The notes beneath the pieces are model-generated. The model was given only the letters and a program-made list of their open reading frames with translations. It was not told where the DNA came from and did no database searches. Below are positions 40,576 through 58,705 of a stretch of DNA of 64,000 nucleotides, piece by piece. Position numbers and translations under genes: made by a program. This stretch comes from Eubacteriales bacterium mix99 (GTDB lineage: Bacteria; Bacillota; Clostridia; Caldicoprobacterales; DTU083), in NCBI GenBank assembly GCA_038396605.1, contig CP121690.1:2570356-2634355 (forward strand), written 5' to 3'. Positions within the stretch are counted from its first letter, which is position 1. Every line of letters begins with the position of its first letter.

Positions 40576-40648
40576 CGCGTGAATAGAAAAAGTAACATCC
40601 AGAGTCAAGCGACCTCATTGGACCTAAGCCTTACGGTAAATTCCAGAA
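40576..40648. mobile_element. Relic of the left end of the IS30-family element
   Basis: 73 bp, 71 identical to 55619..55691, which is the left terminus of the intact IS at 55.6-57.3 kb. The terminal repeat GTGAATAGAAAAAGTA is complete; no transposase and no right end follow. It occupies the 331-nt gap between rpsB and ruvX together with the rpsB promoter. The rest of the gap (40649-40748) shows only a 20-codon ORF with a strong ribosome binding site. Confidence 0.8.
40580..40608 (-). promoter_or_regulatory. Outward promoter-like sequence inside the IS relic
   Basis: Minus strand TTGACT (40608-40603), 17 nt, TATTCA (40585-40580), directed toward rpsB, about 55 nt upstream of the rpsB promoter. 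The -10 is weak. Confidence 0.4.
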
Positions 40649-55476: not shown

Positions 55477-55552
55477 TGGTGCGTCTGACTGGATTCGAAC
55501 CAGCGGCCTTTCGGGTCGGAGCCGAACGCTCTATCCCCTGAGCTACAGACGC
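55477..55552 (-). tRNA. tRNA-Arg (CCG)
   Basis: 76 nt with encoded CCA. Acceptor arms GCGTCTG/CAGACGC, anticodon stem TTCGG/CCGAA, loop CTCCGAC giving CCG, T-loop TTCGAAT. Single-gene unit with its own promoter. Confidence 0.97.
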
Positions 55553-55564
55553 CCAACAACATTT

Positions 55565-55593
55565 ATTATATCATATATTTCAAAGAGCCACAA
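55565..55593 (-). promoter_or_regulatory. Promoter of tRNA-Arg
   Basis: Minus strand TTGTGG (55593-55588), 17 nt, TATAAT (55570-55565) preceded by TGA; start about 6 nt before the tRNA. Confidence 0.7.
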
Positions 55594-55607
55594 CCCCGGA
55601 TTTCTGC

Positions 55608-55620
55608 TTTTATATATCCG
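55608..55620. repeat. Left 13-bp target-site duplication of the IS30-family element
   Basis: TTTTATATATCCG, repeated at 57309-57321 on the other side of the element. Confidence 0.8.
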
Positions 55621-55621
55621 C

Positions 55622-55650
55622 GTGAATAGAAAAAGTAACATCCAGAGTCA
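55622..55650. repeat. Left inverted repeat of the IS
   Basis: Matches 57278-57307 in inverted orientation. Read outward (minus strand) it contains TTGACT, 17 nt, TATTCA. Confidence 0.8.
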
Positions 55651-55756
55651 AGCGACCTCATTGGACGTAAGTCTTACGGTAAATTCCAGAATAAGATTGC
55701 AAATCCAGGTTCCACAGTTCATAATGAAGGTGTACCGCCAAAGGAGGCCAATGATT

Positions 55757-57019
55757 ATGAAGAGACAACTGCTTCATGACAATACTCATCTATCTTTGGA
55801 GGACAGAAAGATCATCCAGGTTGGAATTGAAAACAATTCCACCAAATCATCCATTGCACGGACCATCGGAAAAGATGCCACCACCGTCGCAAAGGAAATC
55901 AGGAAGCACCGCAGATTTAAACCCCGCAATCCGTTTAATCATCCCATTGTGTGCACCAAAATGCGCACCTGCCCAACAAAGCCCTGCGTTAAAAAATGCG
56001 CCTTCTATGAAGAGCCCATATGTAATCGCCGTGACAAATCTCCGGGAGCCTGCAACAAATGCAAGGACAGCCCCGGATGCCATCTCGATAAGTATTACTA
56101 CAACGCGGTATCCGCTGATAAGAAATACCACGATGATCTTGTCGAGACCCGCGAGGGCGTCAACCTCACAACCGGAGAGTGTGACTCCATTGCCCAAATC
56201 CTTGTTCCCCTGCTTAAGAAAGGGCAGTCCATTCATCAGATCCTTTCCGCGCACCCAGAGGTAAAACAGTGTGAAAGGACATTGTATAATTACATTGAAA
56301 GCGGAATCTTCAAAGAGTATGGCGTAGACAACTTTTCCCTCAAGGAACAGGTCAATCGCAAACAGTTCCGGCAAAAATACAAAAAACGTAAGGCCCCGGC
56401 GAACTATGAAGGACGGAAATACGCCGATTATCTGCACTTCCTGTCTGAAAATCCGGAAACGCCAACAGTGGAAATGGATACCGTCTACAATAGTCAGGAA
56501 GGGCCTTACATTCAGACTTTCCTGTTCCCCAAAACTGCTTTCATGATTGGGTTCCTGCACCCGCATAAAACCAGTGAGAGCATGGCGAAAAGCATCGACT
56601 GGCTTCAGGAAAAGCTTGGAGCGGAACAATTCTCCAAACTATTTCCTGTCTTGCTCACAGACCGTGGGCCCGAATTTGAGATGCACCGACTTTTTGAGTT
56701 GAATCCATCCGGCAATTCGCGGCTTAGCATATTCTATTGCGACCCTATGCAATCATGCCAAAAGCCACATGTCGAAAACAACCACAACTACGTGCGTGAT
56801 ATCATCCCGAACTCTTATCCCCTCAGCGGTCTAACGCAGGAAAGCATTGATCTTATGTTTTCCCACATTAATTCGGCACCCCGAAAGTCCCTTGGTGATA
56901 AAACACCTTTTGAGGTCTTTTGCTTTCTTTACGGTAAGGACGTGCCGAAGGTTCTGAACATAAGAGAAATAGATCGTGATGATGTAGTGCTGAAACCGGA
57001 ACTTATTTTCGCAAAATAG
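55757..57019 (+). CDS. IS30-family transposase
   Basis: 420 residues. N-terminal HTH (LSLEDRKIIQVGIENNSTKSSIARTIGKDATTVAKEIRKHRR), then a cysteine cluster (C66, C72, C77, C81, C89, C99, C102, C108) that could bind zinc, and a DDE catalytic core with D241 (VEMDTV), D302 (LLTDRGPEF) and E340 (KPHVENNH). All catalytic residues are present. ATG at 55757 has AGGAGG 9 nt upstream; the frame runs open further upstream through the IS end and antisense tRNA, which is not coding. Confidence 0.94.
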   Translation: MKRQLLHDNTHLSLEDRKIIQVGIENNSTKSSIARTIGKDATTVAKEIRKHRRFKPRNPFNHPIVCTKMRTCPTKPCVKKCAFYEEPICNRRDKSPGACNKCKDSPGCHLDKYYYNAVSADKKYHDDLVETREGVNLTTGECDSIAQILVPLLKKGQSIHQILSAHPEVKQCERTLYNYIESGIFKEYGVDNFSLKEQVNRKQFRQKYKKRKAPANYEGRKYADYLHFLSENPETPTVEMDTVYNSQEGPYIQTFLFPKTAFMIGFLHPHKTSESMAKSIDWLQEKLGAEQFSKLFPVLLTDRGPEFEMHRLFELNPSGNSRLSIFYCDPMQSCQKPHVENNHNYVRDIIPNSYPLSGLTQESIDLMFSHINSAPRKSLGDKTPFEVFCFLYGKDVPKVLNIREIDRDDVVLKPELIFAK

Positions 57020-57277
57020 CGGAATAACTACAGTCCCAACCTTTTGCAGCATTTATTTCCGGCGGTACACAGACAACTCCAGCTCATCTTTGACTTGTGG
57101 AATTTAATCTTTCAGCTTTGAAATTTTAATTTTTTTCAGGTCTGTTTGCCATGCCCAAATTTTCTTCCAATTGATCATTTTTATCAATTTCACACTTTCC
57201 ACACCTTCAATATCATCTCTTCAAGCCTCTATTCCAAGCCCTTTCCGGAACTTACCCCTTCATCTTTTATGGGGCTT
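57020..57277. other. Non-coding right part of the IS
   Basis: About 260 bp between transposase stop and right terminal repeat. No ORF with a ribosome binding site and no clear terminator was seen. Confidence 0.5.
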
Positions 57278-57307
57278 TTGACTCTGGAAGGTACTTTTTC
57301 TATTCAC
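57278..57307. repeat. Right inverted repeat of the IS
   Basis: Complement of the left repeat with few mismatches. On the plus strand it reads TTGACT (57279-57284), 17 nt, TATTCA (57301-57306 region) toward the outside, i.e. antisense into cdaR. Confidence 0.8.
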
Positions 57308-57308
57308 A

Positions 57309-57321
57309 TTTTATATATCCG
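57309..57321. repeat. Right 13-bp target-site duplication
   Basis: TTTTATATATCCG, identical to 55608-55620. Confidence 0.8.
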
Positions 57322-57343: not shown

Positions 57344-58705
57344 TTATGGCGTTTCCGTAGGCTCCGGTGTTTCTGTCGGTTCCGGTGTTTTCGTCGGCTC
57401 CGGTGTTTTCGTCGGCTTCGGCGTTTCAGAGGATGTCGTTTCTTCAGCAACCGATGTAATCCGGACGGTTATCCTGTCTGCGGACTTGCTGACAATCTGT
57501 ACTTCCTTCGGAGCCTTTAGATCCAAAGACAGATCATATTGGCCGGGACGAAAGCCTCCGTCCCCCGGGCTGATCTTTGCAAAATCAGCGGAGGCTGTCA
57601 GGCTTTGCTCATTCAGGGAGTTCATGGCGGTATACGATCCTTTCAACTGAACCGTAACCGGTGCACTGATGATTTCCGCATGAAAACCTTCCGGAATATT
57701 CTTCAGATCAATCTGATTCAGGACAATATCCTTGTTTGCCGTGGTTTCCCGAATATGAACCACAACACTGACCTGGTAGGACTGATCGGAAGATAAATAT
57801 AAACCCTTTACTTTATTGACCGTCACCGTCTTTCGGACATCCTTTGCTGCGCCCTGAATATTTACTTCCTGGGTAGTCAAGGATTCCAGCTGTTCCATTA
57901 TACCGGGAGAAGCGTCGACCTTTAACCTGTCCGGCCGGACTTCCACCTTATCCACCACAAACCCGCTGGCGGGAACACCGGTGATATTGACCTTCACCGG
58001 GATCTCCTGAATCGGATAAATCGGAATCCGCACCATGACGGTTTCCTGACGCAGATGCAGATATTCTGAGAAAACAACATTATTTTCGGAATCCATCAAC
58101 CGAACAGGCATGGACTGTTCAATCGTACTCGCATCGCCATTCAGCTTTACTTCCACAACACCTTCCGCCACCTGTTCCACCAGGGACTGGGCACCATATA
58201 TGGTAACATTCTCGGGCTCCACACTTGGCGAATGAACAGAATATCCATCTGCTGCCTTTCCAATCCCTTTCTGATTCACTTTCACCGGAATGTTCCTGGA
58301 GGTAATTCGATTCACGGTCAATGGCACTTCCGGGATCTTATCCAGCTTTACCTCCCGCGGGCGCAGCCCTTCGATCCTCAGCTCCACTTTCCGGGTCCCT
58401 GTCCAGTCTATGTGTTGCAGATCAAGGACAGCCTTCAGATTCGCCGTATTGACTTTCCGGATGTCATTCACAAGTCCCCGGATGCGGACCGTTACGGTGC
58501 CAACCGGCTTTTCCACCAAAGTCAATTGTTTGTCGTTCAATGCATCCTCATTGACAACAACAATCGGAACATCTGAAATGGGCCGGGTTGTTTCAGGATT
58601 CAGCTCACTGATGGCGTACAGCCATAGAATAACTGCTATGATAACAGAAATTATTTTCAGTACCAGATCGTTTTGCCATGGTTTTTTATTGTCCATCCTG
58701 TTCAT
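57344..58705 (-). CDS. cdaR: YbbR-domain regulator of c-di-AMP synthesis (CdaR)
   Basis: 453 residues: N-terminal membrane helix (LVLKIISVIIAVILWLYAI), then repeated YbbR domains (for example IPVKVNQKGIGKAADGYSVHSPSVEPENVTIYG). The C-terminus ends in a Thr-Pro-Glu-Pro repeat of 15-bp units (57360-57420), perhaps a wall-spanning or flexible tail. It is the extracytoplasmic partner of CdaA. GGAGG stands 7 nt before the ATG; it overlaps cdaA by 20 nt. glmM, normally next, is missing; an IS lies 22 bp past the stop. Confidence 0.93.
   Translation of the reverse strand: MNRMDNKKPWQNDLVLKIISVIIAVILWLYAISELNPETTRPISDVPIVVVNEDALNDKQLTLVEKPVGTVTVRIRGLVNDIRKVNTANLKAVLDLQHIDWTGTRKVELRIEGLRPREVKLDKIPEVPLTVNRITSRNIPVKVNQKGIGKAADGYSVHSPSVEPENVTIYGAQSLVEQVAEGVVEVKLNGDASTIEQSMPVRLMDSENNVVFSEYLHLRQETVMVRIPIYPIQEIPVKVNITGVPASGFVVDKVEVRPDRLKVDASPGIMEQLESLTTQEVNIQGAAKDVRKTVTVNKVKGLYLSSDQSYQVSVVVHIRETTANKDIVLNQIDLKNIPEGFHAEIISAPVTVQLKGSYTAMNSLNEQSLTASADFAKISPGDGGFRPGQYDLSLDLKAPKEVQIVSKSADRITVRITSVAEETTSSETPKPTKTPEPTKTPEPTETPEPTETP

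Follow-up and report, generated by a model that had tools for sequence, protein, structure and literature searches.

IS30-family insertion sequences are usually quoted as duplicating 2-3 bp of target DNA. We analyzed a 64,000-nucleotide stretch of the Eubacteriales bacterium mix99 genome (hereafter, the window) in which an element of this family lies between two exact copies of the 13-mer TTTTATATATCCG. Is this repeat a true target duplication and, if so, does its length go with the cysteine-rich transposase of the element or with a larger part of the family?

Outside the two element-flanking sites, the 13-mer occurs on neither strand of the window, and among the 62,280 position pairs spaced 1701 bp apart in the window, this pair is the only one matching at 13/13 positions. 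The exact flanking duplication recorded in the first-pass annotation was therefore confirmed on both sides. The interval given there (55608-57321) takes in both duplications and is longer than the element proper (55621-57308). The terminal inverted repeats mismatch at their outermost base, which is C on the left and A on the right. Because the three intact copies, each at a different site, share these bases, both are part of the element. The features are listed in Table 1.

Table 1 Features of the insertion sequence and its flanks in the window.
Feature	Position	Strand	Basis
Left 13-bp target duplication, TTTTATATATCCG	55608..55620	.	Matches right copy; one diverged target where the relative G001 lacks the element
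Right 13-bp target duplication, TTTTATATATCCG	57309..57321	.	Exact match to left copy
Whole insertion sequence, 1688 bp	55621..57308	+	Ends set by three intact copies at different sites
Left terminal inverted repeat	55621..55651	+	28/31 positions match right end
Right terminal inverted repeat	57278..57308	-	28/31 positions match left end
AGGAGG 5' of transposase gene	55742-55747		By eye
IS30-family transposase gene, 420 residues + stop	55757..57019	+	NCBIfam NF033563; reading frame
N-terminal helix-turn-helix, residues 10-51	55784..55909	+	Pfam HTH_38, 36 bits (cut-off 27)
Eight-cysteine module, residues 66-108	55952..56080	+	Conserved among 73 sequences; CNxC motif in 73/73
DDE catalytic core (putative)	56477..56776	+	D241 (56477-56479), D302 (56660-56662), E340 (56774-56776); invariant in 73 sequences

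The encoded protein matched the NCBI model of the IS30 family (NF033563) at 88.4 bits, above the cut-off of 80. In an alignment of the window protein with 72 relatives (31-64% identity), all 73 sequences matched the IS30 family model at E 0.01 or better and all contained HTH_38, which bears out the earlier assignment to this family. We read D241, D302 and E340 as the probable catalytic triad. In the structure model (mean pLDDT 84.8), residue 231 onward aligned with retroviral integrase cores (best alignment with Z 14.4, rmsd 4.1, over 164 residues); a sequence-profile search of solved structures gave a best E of just 0.25. The cluster of eight cysteines that had been noticed between the helix-turn-helix and the DDE core is also there, at residues 66, 72, 77, 81, 89, 99, 102 and 108. 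Six of them are invariant in the 73-sequence alignment, and conservation of the remaining two is 90% or higher. Modeled alone (pLDDT 76.2), the module had no Foldseek match among solved chains, which at this model quality says nothing on a new fold. The module likely binds metal, and it would serve structure or DNA contact rather than the setting of the stagger.

To place the repeat, we compared the other copies in the genome (G000, one contig). Apart from fragments, there are four complete copies, with 99.5-100% identity over the aligned part. Both ends are intact in three of them, and the exact 13-bp repeat differs from one of these to the next: TTTTATATATCCG, CAAATCATCCGCT and AAATAAAAATTAT. 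The alignment of the fourth (L003, G000:C1:592982-594665) begins at base 5 of the left end, which is damaged, and comparison of its flanks gave no repeat. Beyond the aligned part of this copy, the left tip is present again in shortened form, which looks like a rearranged end.

The joined flanks of the three intact copies were searched against the genus, that is, two genomes, G000 itself and a relative (G001). The window site (C86 of G001, 79% identity) and the site of the second copy (C15, 72% identity) both had a contiguous match that lacks the element and has a single target, and the joined flanks of the third copy had no match in G001. At the window site, G001 carries a diverged target interrupted by additional bases; what the comparison shows is one target versus two, not an identical 13-mer. 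Comparing the flanks of other copies and finding an empty site in a sister strain were the checks proposed in the first-pass annotation. They gave two further intact copies with different exact 13-bp repeats and two of three sites empty in G001, with one diverged target each; neither copies with 2-3 bp repeats nor an empty allele with both 13-mers were found, and the repeatless fourth copy is the one with the damaged end. Given the repeats of the two other copies and the two empty single-target sites, the 13-bp repeat is supported as a true target duplication, one that the sequences show to arise at insertion.

Solitary ends of the element were also observed, in the window at 40578-40648 (L006), elsewhere in G000 (L005/L007 and L017) and in G001 (L019, L021, L022, L023, L024, L026 and L028). 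They are mostly left ends of 26-186 bp starting from the exact tip, with one right end (L022). No full copy of the element was seen in G001, but this assembly is in 110 contigs and repeats may be missing from it.

On one side, the element neighbors a tRNA-Arg(CCG) gene (55477-55552, minus strand), with the insertion about 55 bp upstream of the 5' end of this gene (interval 55553-55620). A promoter-like pair, TTGTGG-17-TATAAT, was seen by eye between the two and is absent from the consensus-scan list. The other neighbor is an open frame on the minus strand (57344-58705), with 18-bp-spaced repeats at its 3' end (57348-57437) that encode a Pro-Thr-Glu-rich tail; in the alignment, G001 has one more 18-bp unit.

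To profile the duplication length among Cys-rich relatives, which are found mainly in Bacillota, we took the best 80 of 534 matches from a contig scan, plus further loci from other genomes. One earlier end choice had drawn on the repeat; for the count given here, an end profile trained on 16 loci instead placed both ends of each locus, and only then were its flanks checked for a repeat. Loci with a matched gene below 900 bp, an end score below 15, a flank shorter than 20 bp, or repeated flanks were left out. Among the resulting 58 unique loci, an exact 13-bp repeat was found in 30, 14 bp in three, 12 bp in one and 11 bp in one, and 23 had none (two of these match in 12/13 bases). The 16 training loci have 13-bp repeats, so the count is also given without them (n = 42): 14 with exactly 13 bp, five with 11-14 bp, and 23 with none. 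None of 3306 mismatched left/right flank pairings reached 9 or more, and one gave 8. In these counts, read from exact flank matches, 13 bp far outnumbers every other length in the clade (30 of the 35 loci having a repeat). Within single genomes, exact 13-bp repeats were found in 4/4 fetched copies of Lachnospiraceae MAG UW_TS_LCO4_1 (L144, L145, L146, L148) and in 3/3 of Konateibacter massiliensis (L150, L151, L153). G378 has four copies, two with 13 bp, one matching in 12/13 and one whose right end was not found; L202 and L203 have 13 bp by eye. A search for close relatives in viral contigs led nowhere.

The comparison set comprised 35 rows of IS30 elements from the same phylum outside the Cys clade, with their end register fixed by eye from L156 and L157 before repeats were counted. 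The CNxC motif was present in 0/35 of these rows (three of them misread at contig ends) versus 73/73 Cys-clade sequences. Their tips, five bases followed by ATTG or GTTG, can be aligned to the Cys-clade tips. Repeats of at least 12 bp were found in 22/35 rows, with 13 bp in twelve, 14 bp in six, 15 bp in two, and 12 bp and 21 bp in one each. The other 13 rows had no repeat, and three of these are uninformative because the wrong stretch was read at contig ends (L240, L238, L165). Two of the 35 rows (L230 and L189) are the same place, and in one repeat reading L240, L238, L233 and L256 gave meaningless overlapping repeats. One element had 13 bp in 5/5 copies (G777), and another (G473) had 15, 15 and 14 bp. 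The near-identical copies in G495 (97-100%; L227, L186, L187, L188) had repeats of 14, 21, 14 and 13 bp in one register, that is, a variable duplication inside a single genome. On the branch of E. coli IS30, an element of G602 had 4 bp in 4/4 copies in the same register, by eye.

These elements were placed in a maximum-likelihood tree of 62 rows, from which L096, L109 and L095 (no usable frame) and L170 (wrong ORF) were left out. The 33 Cys-rich rows form one side of a branch with support 100/99. Six IS30-proper rows, including E. coli IS30, form one side of another (100/98), and the window protein is not among them. The 23 other module-less rows are on one side of a third branch (99/95); ISLga1 and ISLjo1 have their tree rows among the module-less Bacillota elements. 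The distinct subgroup with long duplications proposed earlier does correspond to a distinct, supported Cys clade, but the long duplication is not special to it. On the unrooted tree, a single long/short change is needed, with 40 rows long (at least 11 bp) and only two short, one of which (E. coli IS30) was scored from the paper. The 2-4 bp stagger appears to be confined to the branch holding E. coli IS30.

In our preferred reading, to which we assign a probability of about 85%, the element belongs to a Cys-rich, mainly Bacillota clade of the IS30 family, and its DDE transposase would attach the element ends to the two strands of the target at positions 13 bp from each other, as expected from established DDE chemistry, with filling of the gaps giving the exact 13-bp direct repeats. 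The stagger would be determined by how far apart the two active sites lie within the transposase-DNA complex. Transposition may proceed via joined ends (copy-out-paste-in), as described for E. coli IS30 in PMC9333248. Two exact patterns for joined-end junctions gave no hit in viral contigs or in 226 loci, leaving E. coli IS30 as the basis for the circle pathway. Counting against this reading, 23/58 Cys-clade loci lack an exact repeat at the chosen ends, the fourth genome copy is repeatless, lengths of 11, 12 and 14 bp occur, and the G001 allele of the window site is diverged.

The repeatless fourth copy would also fit two 13-mers that match by chance or pre-existed, with a true duplication that is shorter or absent. 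This is hardly credible given three independent exact 13-bp sites, and it is refuted by the empty single-target sites unless G001 lost one copy twice. A chance match of the 13-mers was rejected on the single pair among 62,280 and the control pairings with 0/3306 at 9 or more, and a target doubled before insertion was rejected on the empty site with one target in G001. An unlikely but more serious alternative is an element like IS1630, which by the title of its paper reportedly targets inverted repeats, so that 13 bp would be one outcome of many from a variable-length duplication. In this genome, the three sites L001, L002 and L004 have inverted-repeat arms of 6, 5 and 13 bp (shuffle fractions 0.05, 0.11 and 0.00), and L001 and L004 are among the five of 30 sites with 13-bp repeats that had an inverted repeat at a shuffle fraction of at most 0.05, where about 1.5 are expected from shuffles that keep single-base content only. 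Since few shuffles match the inverted repeats at these five sites, a weak tie of insertion to hairpins is possible, which falls short of a targeting rule like the one in the title of the IS1630 paper. Variable duplication length is seen in two module-less groups (G495 and G473). Against this alternative stand the 13 bp in 30/35 Cys-clade loci with a repeat and the 30 target sites, which lack dyad symmetry around their midpoint (pair agreement of 0.20-0.43, depending on position).

Slightly less probable again is that the eight-cysteine module itself sets the 13-bp stagger, making the long duplication special to the Cys clade. The clade is well supported and 13 bp is nearly fixed within it, which is what this idea would predict, but 13-14 bp is also found without the module, as in all five G777 copies. 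The tie between cluster and long duplication implied by the first-pass annotation is not supported, as 22/35 rows without the cluster give 12-21 bp and 18 of these give 13 or 14. A causal role of the module was rejected: module-less elements mostly have 13-14 bp, and it is apparently not the reason for the long duplication.

The preferred reading, a near-fixed 13-bp stagger made by an IS30-type DDE transposase, can be set beside known relatives. E. coli IS30, the type element of the family, likewise has one gene for a transposase with a helix-turn-helix and DDE core, and terminal inverted repeats. It differs in its 2-bp duplication, as published (PMC9333248), and in lying on a separate supported branch without the eight-cysteine module, whereas the element here has 13 bp in three intact copies. 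For one plasmid copy of E. coli IS30 (L206), inspection by eye gave no clear 2-bp repeat. IS1630 and ISMfau-2 of mycoplasmas are also IS30-family elements with duplications far above 2-3 bp, reported as 16, 23, 25 and 26 bp (PMC3317919) and 19-29 bp (PMC11062135), respectively. Compared by these published descriptions, their lengths vary over about 16-29 bp, unlike the Cys clade with lengths nearly fixed at 13 bp. The earlier suggestion of a likeness to mollicute IS1630 was not supported, the published lengths being longer and variable against 13 bp in 3/3 intact copies and 30/35 clade loci. Also comparable are the module-less Bacillota elements (G777, G495, G473, G585, G511 and others), which share the tip register and mostly have 13-14 bp repeats, but lack the CNxC module, lie on a separate side of a supported branch and reach 21 bp in some cases. 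No report of a fixed 13-bp duplication in IS30 elements was found in the titles and abstract starts of the open-licence papers listed, and curated entries may record one. Provisionally, the near-constant length of 13 bp seen in Clostridia and other Bacillota is new relative to the long, variable duplications of mollicutes.

Both the classification of insertion sequences and the calling of their genomic insertions make use of duplication length, and a caller expecting 2-3 bp for IS30 elements would misplace the ends of the 13-bp group. More tentatively, at somewhat less than even odds, a duplication of about 13 bp would be normal across the greater part of the IS30 family tree, in Bacillota at least, with the textbook 2-3 bp as the state of one branch; in that case, the distance between the two strand-transfer sites would have shifted a single time, by roughly one helical turn of DNA, with fold and ends still recognizably alike. 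The usual 2-3 bp rule may describe only one IS30 branch. If there was indeed one switch between 13 bp and 2-4 bp, with the same fold and alignable ends, these natural relatives would make the question of how the join spacing is set directly testable.
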